This document shows positions 5,759-33,902 of a stretch of 45,050 nucleotides of DNA, piece after piece. This DNA comes from a virus. The DNA lies in IMG/VR virus record IMGVR_UViG_3300045141_000168, positions 1 through 45,050 of that record; one strand, written 5' to 3'. Below the pieces are notes generated by a model. It was not told where the DNA came from, did not search any database, and was given only the letters and a program-made list of their open reading frames with translations. Made by a program: the position numbers and the translations under genes. Each line of letters opens with the position of its first letter. Positions within the stretch are counted from its first letter, which is position 1.

Positions 5759-6379
5759 ATGCCTCTTCCGGAGCCGCACGTCATTGGCTTTCCGGGCGGC
5801 CACGATCTGCTCTTGCGAACCGGACCGTTCGACGACATTCGTGACGTCATCACAGCGGCACCGAACTGGGGCGGCCACGGCTACGCGACGAGCGACATCT
5901 TCACCGTCCGCCACAAGCTGATCCGCGAGCTCGATCCGCAACCTCAATCGGTGTTCGAGTTCGGGTCGCTGCTCGGCTACTTCCTGCTCACAGCGGTGGA
6001 CGCTGCTCCGTCGATCGGGCGTGTCGGCTGGATCGACCTCGAGGTGGACGTACCCGAGTCGAACCGGCTCTGCCTCGAGAACCTGAACGACTACGGACGG
6101 AAACGCAACCATGGCTTCTCGACATGGTGCGGCACTCAGACGCGCCAATGTCTCGAGTTCAGCAACGCCGATCTCATCCAGGTCGACGGTGCGCACAGCT
6201 ACCCGGACTGCCTTACGGATCTCGTCTGGGCGATGGAGTTGGGACCATCCGTGGTCTTCGTCGACGACTACGCCGCGATCAACGATGTGAAGCGCGCAAC
6301 CGACGAGTTCGCAGCCTGGCAAGGAGTCGAAGTCGAGTACCACGAGACCGTCAACGGGCTAGCTGTCCTGCGATTTTGA
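5759..6379 (+). CDS. SAM-dependent methyltransferase (Methyltransf_24-like)
   Basis: AGGAGCCTC precedes the ATG. The 206 aa product has motif I as SVFEFGSLLGYFLL (about residue 64), the acidic post-I loop WIDLEVDVPES, and the family signature LIQVDGAHSYPDCLTDL (about 138) followed by VVFVDDYA (about 164). These match class I methyltransferases of the Methyltransf_24/cephalosporin hydroxylase group, which often act on sugars or small molecules rather than DNA. Substrate unknown. It may share a modification pathway with the glycosyltransferase-methyltransferase fusion at 11052. Confidence 0.7.
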   Translation: MPLPEPHVIGFPGGHDLLLRTGPFDDIRDVITAAPNWGGHGYATSDIFTVRHKLIRELDPQPQSVFEFGSLLGYFLLTAVDAAPSIGRVGWIDLEVDVPESNRLCLENLNDYGRKRNHGFSTWCGTQTRQCLEFSNADLIQVDGAHSYPDCLTDLVWAMELGPSVVFVDDYAAINDVKRATDEFAAWQGVEVEYHETVNGLAVLRF

Positions 6380-6390
6380 AGGAGGCCGAA

Positions 6391-6635: not shown

Positions 6636-6941
6636 ATGGCCGACAGCAGACAGTTTCTCGAGCTTGCCTCGGGCGCGAGCGGAATTTTCACGAAGCTCGC
6701 CTCGATTCCGTCCGGCGCTGACAACGCGATTATCCGTGTTGATGCCGGGACGGTGCGCTTGTCGGAATCGACCGGCTCATGGTTGAACGCCTCCATCGGC
6801 CTCATGTTCGCAAGTCCTGACCAGGCGTTCCGTATCGGCAACGGGATTCCGCTGACTGCGTTCGCGTTCGTGCCGCTCGGTGGCGCGGCAGCCGTCCAAG
6901 TCTCGTACTACTCGTATCACGGCATCGGCCAGTACCTCTAA
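6636..6941 (+). CDS. Hypothetical virion protein, 101 aa
   Basis: AGGGAGGACTAG precedes the ATG. The protein is beta-rich, with repeated short strands (FTKLASIPSG, NAIIRVDAGTVRLSES, AVQVSYYSYHG). Its small size, composition and place before head genes suggest a decoration or accessory virion protein. No family recognised. Confidence 0.5.
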   Translation: MADSRQFLELASGASGIFTKLASIPSGADNAIIRVDAGTVRLSESTGSWLNASIGLMFASPDQAFRIGNGIPLTAFAFVPLGGAAAVQVSYYSYHGIGQYL

Positions 6942-11051: not shown

Positions 11052-14000
11052 TTGACCGCTCTCAAGCAGCGCCACCCTGTACCGGACCCGAAGATCGCCG
11101 CCTGCCTTATCACGAAGAACTCGGAGGCGTCCCTAGAAGCCGCTCTCGAGACGATCCGGCCGTTCGTCCACGAGATCAACATCTACGACACCGGCTCCAA
11201 GGACGGCACCTTCGACCTGCTCGAACGGTTGAGCAAGGACGTCCTGCTGGTCGTCAAGGATGGGACGCCGATCGAGACGCTGCAGGAGGAGCCGGCGGCG
11301 CGCCGTGCGGACTGCAGTTACGCGCAGTTGGCGCCGATCCGTGTCAAGCATGGCACCTGGCGCAACGACTTCTCGTGGGCGCGGACGCAGAGTTTCAAGA
11401 TGGCGTCGCCGGAGTGCGACTGGTTCCTCTGGCTCGACGACGACGACCTGATCGTGAACGCGCTCACCCTGCAGCAGCTCGCCTATACGGCTCCGCCGGA
11501 GCTCGACGGGTTCGTGATGCGATACGACTACGCCCATGACGAGGCGGGCAACCTCGTCTGTGTTCTGTGGCGTGAACGGTTGATGCGGCGTGCGTCCGGG
11601 TTCGCGTGGAAGGGCGCGATCCATGAGGTGCTGATCCCGCCGGATGGTCGTAGTCCGAACTTTCAGATGGTGTCGCCGGAGATGGTGCGTTACATCCATG
11701 AGCGGCCACCGGATCGATATCCGCCGGAGCGGAACCTGCGCATCCTCCAGGCCGACGCGCGGAAGGCGCGCGACCGGGGCGAGCAGCCGGACCCGCGGAC
11801 CCTCGCGTATCTCGGCACCGAGCATATGGCGCTCGGCAAGTTTGAGCAGGCGATCCCGTTCCTGCATGAGTACCTCAGCCACCCGAACGCCGGCTGGTCG
11901 GATGAGCGGATGCAGGTGCAGCACAAGCTCGCGACCTGCCTCCGGTTGATGAATGAGCCGACTGCCGCCTATGAGGTTGAGCACACGGCGACGAAGGAGC
12001 GGTTCGACTGGGCCGAGAATTATTGCGGCCTCGTCGAGACGTGCGCGATGCTGGAACGTTGGGGCGAGGTTGAGCATTGGGCGCAGCTGGCGTTGAAGTT
12101 CGGGATGCCACAGTCGATGCTGATCCTGAACCCGCTCGAGTTCTCGCTGCTGCCGTTGGCGCGCCTGTCGGAGGCTTGTGCGAAGCAGGGCCGGTTCGAC
12201 GAGGCCGACCATCATCTCGCGGAGGCGGCGAAGGTCGCGCCGGGCCATCCGGCTATCGCGTCGCAGGGTGCGGCGATCGCTCAGATGCGGATGGAAGGCG
12301 AGTCGATCCAGGCTGTATTGAAGTTGCGCGAGGTGCTCGTCCGCCACGACGAGAACTTGAAGGCGTTGCAGGTGATCGAGTCTGCCCCCTATTACATCGC
12401 GGAGCATCCGGCGATCGTGCAGGCCCGGTCGGAACAGCGCGAGATGTGCAAACACTACTTGCGGCCGGAGGAGTACGTCCGCTGGTACGAGGACGAGCCG
12501 AAAGAGTCGACGTATCCGTGGGATGAGATCGACGAGGTGCCGGAGCGGTTCGAGCGCGTCAAGGGACTCCTGGATGGCCTCGCTGAGCAGGCTTCTAAGC
12601 TCGGCCGGCCACCTCGCGTCCTAGACCTCGGCTGCAACGACTGGGCGCTTGTAGGCGCTGTTCTGTGGCGTCACGGCTACGTCTGCGATGGCGTCGAGTT
12701 GAACAAGGGCAGCTATGAACGGGCGCTCGAGCTCGTAGCTGCGGAGACAGCCAGCGCGAACGGCAACGGGCCGAAGATCGTCCAGGGCGATCTGCACGAT
12801 GCGGGTAGGCTTCTCGGTCCGTGGGCGCAGGCGGAAGGCGAGCCCGGCCAGCACGGCTACGACGCCGTCTCGATCTTCGAGGTGCTCGAGCACGTCCCCG
12901 ACGTTGAGAAGGCGCTCGCCGTCGCCGAGTTGATGCTCAAACCTGACGGCCGCGTCTACCTCTCCACCCCGAACGGTGCCTTCGAGCGCGGCAACCTCTC
13001 CACCTGGGCGCGGGTCGAGCGCAAAGGACATCTGCGCGCTCTGCCGGTGCATGAGTTGGCCGAACTCATCATCAAGCGTGGCAGGATCGAAGACGTCCGC
13101 CTCCACGCCGTCGACCCTGCCGACCCGCGACTCACGTTCCTCAGCTACACGCCGCGCAAATCGAAAGGCAAGGTCGTCTTCTACGGCGGAGGTGCGTGGG
13201 AGCCGTGGTCGCCACGGTCGATGACTGAGGGTGGTCTCGGCGGGTCGGAGACGGCGCTGGCACAGGTTTCGATTCGCATGGCGATGGACGGCTACGAGGT
13301 CAAGGTGTACTCGGGTGCGGAGCCGGGCATGTACGGCGGCGCGCTCTGGCGGCCGTTGCACGCGTTCGACGCTGGTGAGGAGTGCGATCTGCTTGTCGTG
13401 TCGCGGGTGCCGCACATCTTCGACCGGCCCGTCGCGGCAAAGAGGACGGCGTTCTGGTCGCATGACCACAGCTACCCGGAGATGCTGACCGACGAGCGGC
13501 TCGGGAAGATCGACCATGTTGTTGTCTTGTCGGAGTGGCAGAAGGCCAGGTTCGCCCGGTTGTATCCGGCTGCGAAGGAGAAGCTGACGCTGATCCGCAA
13601 CGGGATCGGGATGTTCGACCCCGACACTGGCGAGGATCGTTACGCCGACGCTCGAGCTAGGACGTTCACGCAGCGGAAGCCGCGCGCAGTGTTCTCCTCG
13701 TCAGCCGATCGTGGCCTTGACGTTCTGGTCGGTCTCTGGCCGGCGATCCGTGAGCATGTCCCCGACGCCGAGCTGCACATCTTCTACGGCTTCAACGTCC
13801 TCGATGCGGTGGCGAAGGCGAACCCGCAGCTGCTCGACTTCAAGCGCGGTCTGCTGGCGCAGATCGAGATGCTGGGCGGTGAGAAGATTGGGATCTTCCT
13901 ACGCGGTCGGGTCGGCCAACGCGAACTCGCAGACGAGATGGGAAAGGCTCGCGTGTGGGCGTACCCGACCGCGTTCTTGGAAACATCGTGTATTGGTGCG

Positions 14001-14384
14001 ATGGAGGCGCGGGCGTGTGGTTTGCCGATCGTGACGTCGGCGCTGGGTGCGCTGAACGAGACGGCCGCTCATGGAATCCGGATCGACTGGAACGCCGACG
14101 AGGATGAGCCGTTTAACCAGACGAAGGAGTACGGCGAGAAGTTCGTCGAGTCTGTCACCAAGCTTCTAACCGACGGAGAGTTGTGGCACTACTGGTGGAA
14201 GCAGGCCGTTGGCGAAACGACTCCTCCGATCGACATCGGACAAAACGATTGGCAGCGGCGGATACCGGACTGGGAGGCGCTCGTGCCGAAGAAGCCAGAG
14301 CCGGTGATCTTGCACTACGGCAACATGGCCTCGACCACGGGATCAGTTGAGCCAATCGTGCTCAACTTCACGAAAGCGACCTGA
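11052..14384 (+). CDS. GT2 - TPR - methyltransferase - GT4 multidomain glycan enzyme
   Basis: 1110 aa from a TTG with AAGGAGCCC upstream. Domain 1 (residues about 12-220) is a GT-A glycosyltransferase: KIAACLITKNSEASL, IYDTGSKDGT, and the metal-binding LWLDDDDLI near residue 127. Residues about 230-460 are helical TPR-like repeats. A class I methyltransferase follows (VLDLGCND near 523, then DAVSIFEVLEHVPD). The last third is a GT-B/GT4 enzyme (GGLGGSETALAQ near 729, HVVVLSEWQ, SSSADRGLD near 882, FLETSCIGAMEARACGLPIV). The combination suggests synthesis and capping of a short glycan on virion or cell-surface material. Placing it within the head operon is unusual. Its end overlaps the next ATG. 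Confidence 0.8.
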   Translation: MTALKQRHPVPDPKIAACLITKNSEASLEAALETIRPFVHEINIYDTGSKDGTFDLLERLSKDVLLVVKDGTPIETLQEEPAARRADCSYAQLAPIRVKHGTWRNDFSWARTQSFKMASPECDWFLWLDDDDLIVNALTLQQLAYTAPPELDGFVMRYDYAHDEAGNLVCVLWRERLMRRASGFAWKGAIHEVLIPPDGRSPNFQMVSPEMVRYIHERPPDRYPPERNLRILQADARKARDRGEQPDPRTLAYLGTEHMALGKFEQAIPFLHEYLSHPNAGWSDERMQVQHKLATCLRLMNEPTAAYEVEHTATKERFDWAENYCGLVETCAMLERWGEVEHWAQLALKFGMPQSMLILNPLEFSLLPLARLSEACAKQGRFDEADHHLAEAAKVAPGHPAIASQGAAIAQMRMEGESIQAVLKLREVLVRHDENLKALQVIESAPYYIAEHPAIVQARSEQREMCKHYLRPEEYVRWYEDEPKESTYPWDEIDEVPERFERVKGLLDGLAEQASKLGRPPRVLDLGCNDWALVGAVLWRHGYVCDGVELNKGSYERALELVAAETASANGNGPKIVQGDLHDAGRLLGPWAQAEGEPGQHGYDAVSIFEVLEHVPDVEKALAVAELMLKPDGRVYLSTPNGAFERGNLSTWARVERKGHLRALPVHELAELIIKRGRIEDVRLHAVDPADPRLTFLSYTPRKSKGKVVFYGGGAWEPWSPRSMTEGGLGGSETALAQVSIRMAMDGYEVKVYSGAEPGMYGGALWRPLHAFDAGEECDLLVVSRVPHIFDRPVAAKRTAFWSHDHSYPEMLTDERLGKIDHVVVLSEWQKARFARLYPAAKEKLTLIRNGIGMFDPDTGEDRYADARARTFTQRKPRAVFSSSADRGLDVLVGLWPAIREHVPDAELHIFYGFNVLDAVAKANPQLLDFKRGLLAQIEMLGGEKIGIFLRGRVGQRELADEMGKARVWAYPTAFLETSCIGAMEARACGLPIVTSALGALNETAAHGIRIDWNADEDEPFNQTKEYGEKFVESVTKLLTDGELWHYWWKQAVGETTPPIDIGQNDWQRRIPDWEALVPKKPEPVILHYGNMASTTGSVEPIVLNFTKAT

Positions 14385-17032: not shown

Positions 17033-17506
17033 ATGCCAAGGATCATCAAGATCGGCGAACTGCTGCCCGCAGATTTCGTCGTGGAGCTATCGGCTGGTGA
17101 GCAGTTCACGATGCCCGGCGACCCGCCGCTCGAGCTACTGCTGAAGATCGCCGAGTTGTTCGAACGCACGGAGAACGCGAACGGCGACGCGGGCGAGGTC
17201 GGCCTCGAGGTGTTGCGCGAACTCGACTTTCAGATGTTGGAGTTGCTGCGGATGCGGCAGCCCGAACTTAGGGCGAGCCCGTTCGGTGTTGTCGGCGTCC
17301 AACACGTCGTCGCGACGATGTTGCAGGCGTACAACTTCGCGGCGGTGCCGGACAAGGATGAGGCGGAGGGTGATCCTGAGAACCCTCCCTCGCCCGCCCG
17401 GTCGACGCGGTCGAGTGGATCGCGGTCCTCATCGAAGAGTTCTCGTTCCCGCCGGACTACTGGCACCGGATCGGGTGGGCAGAGTTCCAAGCCTGGCAGC
17501 GTCTAG
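17033..17506 (+). CDS. Tail assembly chaperone, zero-frame product (G-like)
   Basis: ATAGGAGCCCAC precedes ATG 17033. Residues 1-115 form a compact helical protein (LELLLKIAELFERT, LEVLRELDFQMLELL, VVATMLQAYNFAAVP). The last 35 residues are Ser/Arg-rich and look like out-of-frame reading of the downstream chaperone frame. Position between tail tube and tape measure is diagnostic for the G/GT pair, whose products coat the tape measure during tail assembly. Confidence 0.75.
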   Translation: MPRIIKIGELLPADFVVELSAGEQFTMPGDPPLELLLKIAELFERTENANGDAGEVGLEVLRELDFQMLELLRMRQPELRASPFGVVGVQHVVATMLQAYNFAAVPDKDEAEGDPENPPSPARSTRSSGSRSSSKSSRSRRTTGTGSGGQSSKPGSV

Positions 17507-17625
17507 CCGCCCGGCGTCGGATCGAGCGGCATAACAACAGCGAGCGTGAGGCGGCAGGGTTGCCGCCGGTCTCGCGTGGGACGACACCTGAGTGGGGGCC
17601 GCAGGAGCGGCCTCCGGGAGCCTGA
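17380..17625 (+). CDS. Tail assembly chaperone, -1 frameshift extension (GT-like)
   Basis: This frame is open from just after TGA 17377-17379 to TGA 17623-17625 and encodes a typical T domain: VDAVEWIAVLIEEFSFPPDY, then WAEFQAWQRLAARRRIERHN. It has no ATG, GTG or TTG near its start, so it must be reached from the upstream frame by a -1 shift within roughly 17380-17400. The best slip site I see is C-CCT-CCC at 17383-17389; re-pairing at the P site is good, at the A site weaker. The fusion would be close to 198 aa. Confidence 0.7.
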   Translation, partial: EPSLARPVDAVEWIAVLIEEFSFPPDYWHRIGWAEFQAWQRLAARRRIERHNNSEREAAGLPPVSRGTTPEWGPQERPPGA

Positions 17626-20706: not shown

Positions 20707-20721
20707 GAGGCGGGGACCATC
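20705..20721 (+). promoter_or_regulatory. Ribosome site pointing to an ATC start
   Basis: AGGAGG (20705-20710), overlapping the tape measure stop, is followed after eight bases by ATC (20719) in the context GGGACC-ATC-GAC. Good spacing and in-frame coding from there on indicate initiation at ATC, since no ATG, GTG or TTG occurs in frame until 20905. Confidence 0.55.
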
Positions 20722-22281
20722 GACAGCATCCTTCTCTTCCCGCCCGGCCCCTCGATCGCCGGCTCGCAGCTGCAGCTCGGGACGTACCTCGACTGGCTCG
20801 CGGGCGCCGACTTCGGCGCGAAGGGGCTGATCCAGTCCCAGGAGTCCTCGAACGCCCTCCGCGACGGCGGCGTTTTCGCCTACCGGAACGTCGGACCGCG
20901 GCAGATGTCGTTCCCCCTCCTGCTCCGCGACGTGCCGAACCAGACGCTCCTCCAGACGGAGAGCCTGCTCCGCAACTGGACGACGCCAGGGGCGAGGGTC
21001 GCCGTGCAGACCGAGACGACGCCCTCGGGGCAGGCCGTCTTCTTCGACGTGCTCGACGGCCGCTGGGAGCCCGCCTATGACGGCTTCGAGAACCGGGCAG
21101 GTCGACGTCGCGGGACGCTCTTCCTCGACACGCAGCCGTGGGGGTACTGGCCGACCGAGATGCTGCTTGCGTCGGCGGCGAGCATCGGCTTCAACGGCCA
21201 GCTCACCGTCAGCGGCGCGAGCGTGATCGGCGACATCCCACCGCTTGCTCATATCGCCATCGCGCCGACCGTCGCATCGTTCTACGCCTCCGGCGGTGGT
21301 ACCGCACTGGCGGGTGCGTGGATGCCGGACATGCTCGCGGTCTCGCTGTCGGCGCGACCGAGCTTCACGCCTCTGATCCCGCCGGCAGCCTTCTCCGCGC
21401 CCTCGCCGGTCGGGCTCGGATTCACGCCGACGCTGATCGCCGACAAGTACGCGCCCGCGTCGCAGGCATGGTCGTTCGTCGCACGCGGCGACGCGAATCC
21501 CTTTGGCTGGTACAACCTGGCATTCAGTTCGTCGGCGATCTCGTCGGCGCTCGAACCCGCCTACCGTGGCCGTTTCCGCGTCTTCGGTTTCGCGAGACTC
21601 ACGGTTCCCGAAGCTACGGCTCCCTGGTATTTGCTCGCTGATTCCGAACGTTCGGTAGGGACTGGCCCTTACATTGCGATGGCGTCCGCGAACCAACTCG
21701 CCACAGCCTACGGTGTGCTGCCGGCGGCCAACACGAACATCACGGCGAGTCCCGCCTACAGCATCCTCGACCTCGGCGAACTCACTCTTCCCGCCGCCGC
21801 CTCTGGTGTTCCGGGCGGCGACCGGCTGCGTCTCTGGGGGCGCGTTCCTTCAGTACCTGCTGCCGCCACCTGGACTCTTTCCTTCGGCGGCCTCTATCTG
21901 CTTCCGGTCGATGGCGCGGCGGGGATCTTGACGCGAGGGATGATCGTGCCCTCCTACAACGGCGCTCTGGTCGGAGGTATCGCTGGCACTCAAGCGGCTG
22001 TCGAACTCAACGGCAACTCGGTCGAGTCGATCTCGCTCGTGACGGGATTCCCGGCCTCATCACCTCTGCCTGCAGCGATCGTCAATGACGGCCGGGCGTT
22101 CTATCGCGGTCTGCCGTTGCGGCTTGGCGCTTCGACGTCTCAGCTTCTCTCGCTGACCGGCGACCGGCTGATGAACACTCAGGGGGCCGACGGGAACTTC
22201 GTCTGCGCGCAGGCCAACCTCGAGTATTCGCAGGTGAGCGTCAGCTACCGGCCGACATTCCAGTTCTTGTCCGGGCTGTAG
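20719..22281 (+). CDS. Distal tail (Dit-like) protein, apparent ATC start
   Basis: From ATC 20719 the product is 520 aa; from ATG 20905 it would be 458 aa and lose the conserved opening (DSILLFPPGPSIAGSQLQLG). The N-terminal region reads as a Dit-type domain: QESSNALRDGGVFAYRNVG, then LRDVPNQTLLQTESLLRNW, then a beta-rich middle. Later parts resemble carbohydrate-binding beta sandwiches. Dit forms the hub between the tail tube and the adsorption apparatus. Position after the tape measure supports this. The start codon needs experimental proof. Confidence 0.7.
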   Translation: MDSILLFPPGPSIAGSQLQLGTYLDWLAGADFGAKGLIQSQESSNALRDGGVFAYRNVGPRQMSFPLLLRDVPNQTLLQTESLLRNWTTPGARVAVQTETTPSGQAVFFDVLDGRWEPAYDGFENRAGRRRGTLFLDTQPWGYWPTEMLLASAASIGFNGQLTVSGASVIGDIPPLAHIAIAPTVASFYASGGGTALAGAWMPDMLAVSLSARPSFTPLIPPAAFSAPSPVGLGFTPTLIADKYAPASQAWSFVARGDANPFGWYNLAFSSSAISSALEPAYRGRFRVFGFARLTVPEATAPWYLLADSERSVGTGPYIAMASANQLATAYGVLPAANTNITASPAYSILDLGELTLPAAASGVPGGDRLRLWGRVPSVPAAATWTLSFGGLYLLPVDGAAGILTRGMIVPSYNGALVGGIAGTQAAVELNGNSVESISLVTGFPASSPLPAAIVNDGRAFYRGLPLRLGASTSQLLSLTGDRLMNTQGADGNFVCAQANLEYSQVSVSYRPTFQFLSGL

Positions 22282-24132: not shown

Positions 24133-24723
24133 ATGACTGAGGTGTTACAGCACCAACTACCCAACCTCAAATGGGAGGCGACGCCCAACTGCAGCAGCCG
24201 CAACGGCGCCGCGATCCGACTCGTCGTCGTCCACCGCTGGGGTGTCAGGTTCACCGACGAACACGCCGAAGCCCGCAGCTACCAGGGTGTCATCAACTAC
24301 TTCGAGACGAAGGCGAGCCAGGTCTCATCGCACTACGTTTATCCCGGCAGCGCCGTCCCCGGTGAGGCGACGCAGATGGTGCCGTTGCATTTGAAGGCAT
24401 GGGCGGAGCGCTACTACAACGGCGACAGCGTCGAGGTCGAATCCGCTGATGCGATCTGGTTGGGCCATGACCCGGCAGGGTTCCACCAGCTCGCCCACAT
24501 CGTCGCCTACCTCCTCCACCACTACCACCTGCCGGCACATAAGCTCGACTCCGTCGGCATCGTCCACGGGTCCGGCTTCTGCCGCCACTACGACCTCGGT
24601 GCGCTCGGCGGCGGACATTCCTGCCCGACCACCGACCAGCACCTCTGGGATGCCTTCGCGGCCCTCGTCAAGAGTGAGTTCCATCGAGGCGGATTCCGCC
24701 ACGCACCGTGGGGCAAGCCATGA
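24133..24723 (+). CDS. Endolysin: N-acetylmuramoyl-L-alanine amidase (Amidase_2/PGRP)
   Basis: 196 aa, AAGGGAGTCACG upstream. The fold markers are LVVVHRWGVRFTD (first zinc His about residue 36), HYVYPGSAVPG, WLGHDPAGFHQLAHIVAYLL, and VGIVHGSGFCRHYDLG followed by GGHSCP, which supplies further ligands. It cuts the amide bond between muramic acid and the stem peptide. There is no separate wall-binding domain and no signal peptide, so it needs a holin. The two following membrane proteins fit that role. The stop overlaps the next ATG. Confidence 0.85.
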   Translation: MTEVLQHQLPNLKWEATPNCSSRNGAAIRLVVVHRWGVRFTDEHAEARSYQGVINYFETKASQVSSHYVYPGSAVPGEATQMVPLHLKAWAERYYNGDSVEVESADAIWLGHDPAGFHQLAHIVAYLLHHYHLPAHKLDSVGIVHGSGFCRHYDLGALGGGHSCPTTDQHLWDAFAALVKSEFHRGGFRHAPWGKP

Positions 24724-32306: not shown

Positions 32307-32648
32307 TTGTACGTCTACTTCATCCAGCAGGGCGACGACGGGCCGATCAAGATCGGGACCGCTGGTTGGCGTGAAGGAAGGCTAACCGACCTCCAGGTTG
32401 GGAATCCGACCGCACTCAAGATCATCGGATCTCGCCTTTGCCATAGCTATGGAGAGGCCCGCGATCTCGAGGCGGCGCTCCACAGAGGTTATGCGCCGCA
32501 GCGGATCCGCGGCGAATGGTTCGAGTCCACGAAGGAGCTGCTTGTTGAGATCGGCCAACTCTCTGATCCTCCGCGCCTGAGGATCCCGTCTGTGCCGCCG
32601 AAGGACGACGAGGCGGAATGGCAGAAGTTGTTGAGGAGCCTGCGATGA
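32307..32648 (+). CDS. T5orf172 / GIY-YIG-like nuclease domain protein
   Basis: TTG at 32307 is chosen because the domain begins at once: YVYFIQQGDDGPIKIGTAGW, then RLTDLQVGNPTALKIIG, EARDLEAALHRGYAPQR and GEWFESTKELL. This is the T5orf172 variant of the GIY-YIG fold (113 aa), often found in mobile or regulatory phage proteins. A longer frame from 32205 would read through the attP-like region with poor composition. The stop overlaps the next ATG. Confidence 0.65.
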   Translation: MYVYFIQQGDDGPIKIGTAGWREGRLTDLQVGNPTALKIIGSRLCHSYGEARDLEAALHRGYAPQRIRGEWFESTKELLVEIGQLSDPPRLRIPSVPPKDDEAEWQKLLRSLR

Positions 32649-33259
32649 GTCTTACGTCGCGTCGCAACGGAACCGGCCGCGTCTACGTGCGGAGCTTCGA
32701 CCACGAAGAAGCAGCCGCACGTTATGCGAACGGTGAGCGCGTTGCCGATCTCGTCGCAGAGTACGGCGTCACAAAGAGTGGCGTCTACAACGTTCTCACC
32801 GTCGAGGCCAAAAGCAAGAGCGTCGCCAACAACAGACGCTGGCGCTCCGGTCGTTGCGACAAGTGCGGCGGACCGGCGATGCGGCTCGTCGGATCCAAGA
32901 AGCAGCACAACAAGGATGGACGATCTCTCTGCCTACGTTGTCGAAATATTGAGCGGCGAGAACGGCTTCGATTCGACAACACAGGCCGACTCGTGTCAGT
33001 CCGATGTTCGACCATTGACTGTGCACATGGCGAAAGGTGGCAACCGCCTGTCAACTTCGCGCGAGGCACCAAGTTCCGTGACGTTCGCGAAGGCGGCATT
33101 CATGGTCAATGCCGCGATTGTCTAACGCGAGCGAAGCGACGCTCTCGGGCCGCCCATCCGGAATATCGCCGCGCTAATGGGGGCAGCGCGAGCCGATCGC
33201 TCACAACAAGCCGGGGCCGTTATCCCGAGGATGTGCAAACAACTCGGAGTGCGGAGTAA
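32645..33259 (+). CDS. HTH plus zinc-ribbon DNA-binding protein
   Basis: 204 aa. Residues 28-50 form a homeodomain-like HTH (NGERVADLVAEYGVTKSGVY). Two zinc sites follow: CDKCGG...CLRC and CSTIDCAHGERW...GQCRDC. The C-terminal 40 residues are basic (RAKRRSRAAHPEYRRANG). The mix is reminiscent of HNH-like or transposon-derived regulators, but no HNH core is evident. Its TAA overlaps the ATC used by the next gene (TAATC). Confidence 0.55.
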   Translation: MSLTSRRNGTGRVYVRSFDHEEAAARYANGERVADLVAEYGVTKSGVYNVLTVEAKSKSVANNRRWRSGRCDKCGGPAMRLVGSKKQHNKDGRSLCLRCRNIERRERLRFDNTGRLVSVRCSTIDCAHGERWQPPVNFARGTKFRDVREGGIHGQCRDCLTRAKRRSRAAHPEYRRANGGSASRSLTTSRGRYPEDVQTTRSAE

Positions 33260-33261
33260 TC
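33246..33261 (+). promoter_or_regulatory. Ribosome site and ATC start of the exported lysin
   Basis: GGAG at 33246-33249 lies nine bases before ATC 33259, which overlaps the preceding TAA as TAATC. Elsewhere in this genome the same overlap geometry is TGATG. The frame has no ATG, GTG or TTG between the upstream in-frame TAA (33175) and TTG 33295, which lies inside the signal peptide. Confidence 0.5.
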
Positions 33262-33621
33262 CGGTGGCTAGCGCTCGTCGCCGTCATCTTCGCCTTGTTC
33301 ACGCCGACAGCCTCGGCGCAGCGTCACCCCGCGTGGTGGTACTTCCACCACCGGCCGTATCCGAGGTGGTGGCGATTAGAGGCGAGTTGTATCCGACGGC
33401 ACGAAGGTGCGTGGACGAGCAACACGGGGAATGGGTACGAGGGGGCCTACCAATTCCTTCTCTCTACATGGCGCTCGGTGGGCGGCCACGTCAATCGAAG
33501 TGGCCATTGGGCGTCGGTTGCGTCTCCTGCCGAACAAACGTATCGCGCGCATCGCATCTGGGCGCGCGACGGTCACAGTTGGAGAGAGTGGTCAACTCGA
33601 TACGTCTGTGGCCTTAGATGA
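33259..33621 (+). CDS. Exported Rpf-like transglycosylase, apparent ATC start
   Basis: From ATC the product is 120 aa and begins with a textbook signal peptide: Met-Arg-Trp, then LALVAVIFALF and TPTASA before a Gln. The mature part matches the transglycosylase-like/Rpf domain: LEASCIRRHEGAWTSN (catalytic Glu), GNGYEGAYQFLLSTWRSVGG, and ASPAEQTYRAHRIWARDGHS. These enzymes cleave peptidoglycan glycan strands in actinobacteria. Being in the early region rather than with the endolysin, it may aid wall remodelling of lysogens or DNA entry. Reading frame certain; start codon unusual. Confidence 0.7.
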   Translation: MRWLALVAVIFALFTPTASAQRHPAWWYFHHRPYPRWWRLEASCIRRHEGAWTSNTGNGYEGAYQFLLSTWRSVGGHVNRSGHWASVASPAEQTYRAHRIWARDGHSWREWSTRYVCGLR

Positions 33622-33902
33622 CAACACCAGGAACCCTTACGGAAGGCCGGTTTGACGAACTCCTTGAGCGTGTCCGCTCCCGCCGCCTCGGTCTCCCTGT
33701 GGCCTCCGAGCGCAAGCGGATCCGCGAAGACGCCGGCTGCTCCCTCCGAGAGATGGCGGCAGCCGTCGGCACCTCTGCGATGACGATACGCCGCTGGGAG
33801 AACGGGGCTCGCCCACGCGACCCCCAGCACCTCACCACGTACAGACGGCTCCTCACCGAGCTTGAGCGCATCATGGAGCTCCCTGCGGGTGGGGACACAT
33901 GA
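33618..33902 (+). CDS. Xre-family HTH protein, 94 aa
   Basis: ATGA overlap with the lysin. The HTH lies at residues 34-65: REDAGCSLREMAAAVGTSAM then TIRRWENGARPRDPQ. The N terminus (RFDELLERVRSRRLGLP) is helical. It is a likely regulator of the small-gene operon that begins here, but its target is unknown. Confidence 0.7.
   Translation: MTTPGTLTEGRFDELLERVRSRRLGLPVASERKRIREDAGCSLREMAAAVGTSAMTIRRWENGARPRDPQHLTTYRRLLTELERIMELPAGGDT

Follow-up and report, generated by a model that had tools for sequence, protein, structure and literature searches.

Genome context and organization of the locus

The window, that is, the whole stretch of DNA analyzed here, is an IMG/VR virus record of 45,050 bp with a GC content of 64%. 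Siphovirus genes (head protease, major head protein and tape measure) are present, together with integrase and terminase genes. No close DNA relatives of the window were found among named phages; wherever a cultured host was listed for a relative among named phages or plasmids, that host was an actinobacterium, and the host group is probably the actinobacteria. Downstream of the integrase, flanked by a DNA-binding-like gene and a helix-turn-helix gene, lies the gene of interest, which encodes a predicted secreted protein resembling resuscitation-promoting factors (Rpf). The coordinates of this gene, of its start region and of the other features considered below are given in Table 1.

Table 1. 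Positions of the Rpf-like gene, its start region and related features in the window
Feature	Position	Strand	Description	Basis
Putative ATC-started tail gene	20719-22281		Follows the tape measure gene	Open from 20707; AGGAGG with 8-nt spacer
Amidase_2 endolysin gene	24133-24723	+	ATG start; separate lysis enzyme and internal control	PF01510, E=4.8e-11
Upstream gene	32618-33259	+	213 aa, weak DNA-binding match; TAA overlaps the ATC	ORF, match
In-frame TAA	33175-33177	+	Closes the frame 28 codons 5' of the ATC	Sequence
Shine-Dalgarno GGAG	33246-33249	+	9-nt spacer to the ATC	Same spacing in L004, L055 and L084
Rpf-like transglycosylase gene, predicted secreted	33259-33621	+	120 codons, ATC start, TGA stop	Open frame; PF06737; model nearest RpfE/RpfC
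Inferred ATC start codon	33259-33261	+	1-base overlap with the TAA of the upstream gene	Homologue start column with ATC/CTG/ATT/TTG/GTG
Predicted signal peptide	33259-33318	+	(M)RWLALVAVIFALFTPTASA	Hydropathy; N-terminal character kept in homologues
TTG	33295-33297	+	Sole canonical codon 5' of the Rpf domain, within the signal peptide	Sequence
Rpf-like transglycosylase domain	33403-33591	+		PF06737 match; family profile matches solved Rpf structures
Helix-turn-helix gene	33618-33902	+	Ordinary ATG; ATGA overlap with the Rpf-like gene

The deduced product is, judging from its sequence and predicted fold, an Rpf-like transglycosylase, for which peptidoglycan cleavage is predicted. It matched PF06737 (Transglycosylas, Rpf-like) with an E-value of 1.4e-11 and 45.3 bits, against a curated cut-off of 27, and a search with the family profile retrieved the M. 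tuberculosis Rpf structures. The AlphaFold2 model of the protein (pLDDT 89.7) had RpfE and RpfC as its best PDB matches (E 3.6e-4; target TM-score 0.57-0.71 in the top six), so that both the profile score and the modeled fold agree with membership in this family. As candidates for the catalytic glutamate and the paired cysteines, Glu49, Cys44 and Cys117 were found without exception in the 15 homologues compared, but Glu49 falls two columns away from the Rpf glutamate when the profile is aligned to RpfC. The domain, the predicted fold, the predicted secretion signal and, probably, the conserved cysteines are held in common with resuscitation-promoting factors (PF06737) and with phage-borne Rpf genes. 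Unlike the window gene with its ATC, the inspected homologues from isolate phages (Streptomyces phages Alone3, BRock and pSt2308, Mycobacterium prophi79-1, and Rhodococcus phages Dorin and Grayson) start with ATG or GTG; they belong to another subfamily. Four further phage Rpf-like genes (L047, L077, L081 and L082) have long frames with a longer N-terminal part before the domain (e.g. RREHRQVKSLHRYVGTIRFF) and several ordinary start codons, representing another architecture of the same enzyme.

The initial annotation described the product as an exported lysin, which is to be corrected to an Rpf-like transglycosylase. The gene is not the endolysin of a lysis cassette, a place occupied by the separate amidase at 24133, which is 82% identical in contig L003 and 80% in L004.

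Translation start of the Rpf-like gene

Positions 33257-33261 of the window read TAATC, the final A of the upstream TAA being also the first base of the ATC, exactly as the initial annotation had it. The frame is open from 33178 to the TGA at 33619-33621, and no canonical start codon (ATG, GTG or TTG) precedes the middle of the signal peptide, the first being the TTG at 33295, codon 13 counted from the ATC. The statement that no other start is possible therefore holds for canonical codons and is too broad for others, given a further in-frame ATC upstream, at 33196, outside the conserved protein. Translation from 33259 yields (M)RWLALVAVIFALFTPTASA-QRHP..., with a peak hydropathy over 10 residues of 3.25 vs -0.35 from the TTG, so that a start at the latter would lose the hydrophobic core of the signal peptide; the hydropathy supports the signal peptide previously proposed from the ATC. 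Besides the Shine-Dalgarno motif listed in Table 1, an additional GGAG occurs at 33253-33256, just 2 nt from the ATC. Since the PF06737 match falls in the ATC frame, this is the coding frame. Translation initiation at ATC 33259 is strongly indicated, above all by the relatives described below. Control by a structured leader or a riboswitch, which would call for a stable or known RNA structure at the start, was not supported: no stable structure was found there among 10 homologues (fold z-scores from -1.8 to +1.4), and no Rfam match was obtained at the start.

Variation of the start codon among homologues

Single-protein scans with the Rpf protein and with the product of the upstream gene returned no relatives, and the DNA pattern GGAGTAATCNNGTGGCT identified 26 loci, mostly of unrelated genes (many of them GTG-started), except for the L004 contig. 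The Rpf-like family was collected by integrase-based and then profile-based scans of viral contigs; the only Rpf genes obtained from a scan of genome contigs were distant ones of Ktedonobacteria/Chloroflexi, for which ordinary starts are available.

A survey of homologous genes, as recommended in the initial annotation, placed ATC, CTG or ATT in the same start column in 18 of 33 aligned homologues. Among the close relatives, ATC is found in the window, L004, L051 and L055, CTG in L003, L006, L048, L053, L056, L057, L083, L091 and L095, and ATT in L093, with Arg or Lys nearly always encoded by the next codon; the start assignment is less certain in L084 (CTG CTG) and L088 (ATC GCC). Five homologues (L072, L099, L103, L106 and L117) have TTG or GTG in this column, showing that extreme weakness is not obligatory, and in each of them an in-frame TGA immediately 5' of the codon makes an earlier start impossible and thereby fixes the start column of the family. 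In a second, separate clade, the ATC of L100 (ATC ACA ACC CTA TTG) and L104 (ATC TCA ACC GTA TTG) aligns with the first codons of L115 (ATG ACT GTA CTA CTG), L132 (TTG ACA GTA GTA CTG) and L125 (GTG ACG GCT GTA CTG). L003 and L093 are devoid of ATG, GTG and TTG throughout their whole open frames, which comprise 130 and 149 codons, respectively. Alternative canonical codons lie near enough in five of the 18 weak cases (L004, L057, L084, L088 and L091), and an in-frame TTG occurs at codon 5-8 in L053, L100 and L104. The window (ATC CGG TGG CTA GCG CTC GTC GCC) and L093 (ATT CGG TGC CTA GCG CTC GTC GCT) differ at the start within AUH, AUG being found in neither. In nearly every case the weak codon is preceded by a Shine-Dalgarno-like stretch, mostly at a spacer of 7-10 nt. 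Taken together, the sequence features expected of an attenuating non-AUG start of the sigR/infC kind are present: lack of a canonical N-terminal start, Shine-Dalgarno spacing and a weak codon kept across relatives.

The L004 contig harbors the junction GGAGTAATC(CG/AA)GTGGCT twice (6366-6382 and 6823-6839), 457 bp apart. The two copies flank a gene of ~150 aa, HNH endonuclease-like by eye; the next gene uses the GTG of the first copy as its start, and the Rpf-like gene the ATC of the second. The arrangement suggests an insertion in which the start region was duplicated.

Start codons on the tree and in other shared genes

On the tree of the 33 homologues, the identity of the start codon changed at least 17 times, and the weak/canonical class seven times in a clustered manner (as low in 4 of 500 shuffles), these counts being minima on one tree with poorly supported deep branches and the contigs not being independent samples. 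As a control, ORFs common to the contigs were used (at most 85% identical, with at least two other contigs), and a canonical codon was sought in the interval reaching from 40 codons 5' to 9 codons 3' of the point where homology begins; this homology-based design was used in place of an earlier codon-usage-model control, which called too many shadow frames. Such a codon was present in 77 of 81 other shared genes vs 19 of 28 Rpf-type genes (Fisher p=5e-4), the generous rule crediting the latter with remote upstream canonical codons. The four non-Rpf exceptions resemble shadow frames, and for most genes directly downstream of the Rpf-like genes an ordinary start is available close by, as with the ATGA in the window. 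As the other shared genes are nearly all canonical, the weak start is, on this comparison, a trait of the Rpf-like gene family and not a general habit of these phages. The proposal that AUC initiation is genuine is consequently strongly supported by the start column of the homologues, but it is not specific to AUC, CTG being commoner and ATT also occurring; its extension to the phage at large fails.

The initial annotation also took two ATC starts in one genome as an argument against chance, the other one probably being that of the tail gene at 20719. This gene shows coding signal from its start, with the first ATG only at 20905, and an ATC start is plausible from the sequence. No homologues of its protein were found in the collections searched, and in the L003 phage the gene behind the tape measure begins with GTG and did not match it. 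The pair of ATC starts thus adds little, because the second lacks a homologue for comparison.

Origin of the weak start

The reading that best accounts for these observations is that translation begins at AUC 33259, read as fMet, and that weak starts have been selected to keep the secreted enzyme low, to which we assign a probability of about 0.78; selection for weakness as such appears likely. Under this reading, fMet-tRNA would initiate with low efficiency at AUC (or at CUG or AUU), positioned by the upstream Shine-Dalgarno sequence, the first residue would be fMet, and the protein would be exported by Sec. The low dose would be the selected property, AUC, CUG and AUU being retained for the small output of peptidoglycan transglycosylase that they allow, and the simplest reason may be that an externally acting wall hydrolase is likely harmful in excess. 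Ribosomes finishing the upstream gene probably re-initiate at the AUC of the window through the TAATC overlap; since L048, L051 and L053 lack an upstream ORF extending to the start, such coupling would be an aid and not the basis of expression. The enzyme is probably accessory to the amidase endolysin and, like the Rpf proteins of bacteria, would serve to trim the host wall at low abundance. A physiological switch, with AUC/CUG initiation depending on host IF3 activity or ribosome state, seems improbable; if it existed, the Rpf-like enzyme would be made at trace, resuscitation-factor doses, or mainly upon changed host translation fidelity, for example in slow or dormant cells.

A weak start may also be real and not selected, if the host or the infected cell reads near-cognate codons well, or if any level of enzyme is tolerated and the codon drifts. 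Mixed codon identities within the family and the putative second ATC start in the same phage fit drift of this kind, but the other genes common to the contigs are nearly all canonical, and weak codons persist along long branches in most of the close clade even though CTG and ATC are one step from AUG; we regard this explanation as unlikely. Base 33261 could instead be a sequencing error for G, this phage being represented by a single record. The same codon is, however, ATC, ATT or CTG in homologues, and three weak-start cases recur in different metagenome assemblies (L048/L049, L051/L052 and L053/L054, with 0-1 differences in 5 kb, none at the start), which excludes a family-wide base-call error and leaves a negligible chance for an error at this base.

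The remaining alternatives dispense with the ATC altogether. Fusion to the upstream gene by a -1 frameshift would render an own start unnecessary, and the register of the upstream frame would indeed permit this (stop frame +1) in the window, L003, L004 and L006, but any 1-nt or 4-nt overlap gives the same register. Such a fusion would turn the signal peptide internal, no slippery sequence was noticed, and the mechanism is at odds with the three contigs without an upstream ORF reaching the start and with the five homologues having a TGA directly before the start codon, making it very improbable. Much the same applies to translation from the TTG at 33295, the first canonical codon in frame, giving a protein without signal peptide: apart from the removal of the hydrophobic core, an equivalent codon is missing in L003 and L093, and the N-terminal segment upstream of it is conserved in character, so this start, too, is very unlikely. 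Even less credible is that the overlapping frame, starting with GTG 33264, represents the actual gene, despite its better-looking start (frame 33177-33617 open, GGAG at a 7-nt spacer before the GTG) and despite the upstream junction copy of L004 feeding a GTG-started gene; the Pfam domain and all family conservation are in the ATC frame, the offset GTG/ATG arises from Arg/Lys-Trp/Cys codons, and it is absent in L006, L053, L056 and L057.

Relation to known non-AUG starts

To our knowledge, only a handful of bacterial genes have been shown experimentally to rely on starts other than AUG, GUG and UUG. In Streptomyces, sigR starts with GTC, is repressed by IF3 and is overproduced when the start is replaced by ATG (PMC5472188). 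It resembles the window gene in having a rare non-AUG start with a Shine-Dalgarno sequence, kept across species with a change of codon (GTC/GTT in sigR), and in its actinobacterial setting, which is the probable one of the window gene; it differs in that the latter is a phage-borne wall enzyme with ATC/CTG/ATT, swapped far more often, and with a moderate, not extended, Shine-Dalgarno sequence. The autoregulated infC gene starts with ATC in Streptomyces and with ATT in E. coli (PMC5472188), and likewise uses ATC/ATT as a deliberately weak start, whereas the window gene is viral and its product is not IF3, hence no self-feedback is expected. In S. aureus, cvfC1 (AUU) and ccpN (AUA) have conserved non-AUG starts with expression at ~10% of that from AUG, but these are starts of host genes and require extended Shine-Dalgarno motifs (PMC13009471). 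In E. coli, CUG reaches 0.86% of the efficiency of AUG; among bacterial starts in general, its share is 0.024% (PMC11497404).

Attenuating non-AUG starts are therefore already known, and the phage wall enzyme would be a new place for them; an incomplete literature search did not turn up any previous description of such starts in phage wall enzymes. The finding is also larger than the initial annotation suggested: as the aligned sequences indicate, the weak start runs through the family of phage Rpf-like genes, its codon being swapped repeatedly. This viral family, whose start moves between ATC, ATT and CTG and is mostly weak, offers a natural series on when selection prefers a poor start; it also suggests that phages of what are probably actinobacteria carry wall enzymes whose dose is critical. 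Gene finders ignore starts other than AUG, GUG and UUG, and such genes are truncated or missed; annotation could be corrected by allowing ATC, CTG or ATT behind a Shine-Dalgarno sequence where the signal peptide would otherwise be cut.

Other features of the window

Upstream of the tape measure gene, ORF 17380-17625 has a strong coding signal without a usable start and overlaps ORF 17033-17506 in the -1 register, like the frameshift pairs of tail chaperones, although the region 17033-17625 showed no clear slippery site. In the structural block, positions 11052-14384 encode a protein of 1110 aa that gave two matches to glycosyltransferases and a weak one to methyltransferases.
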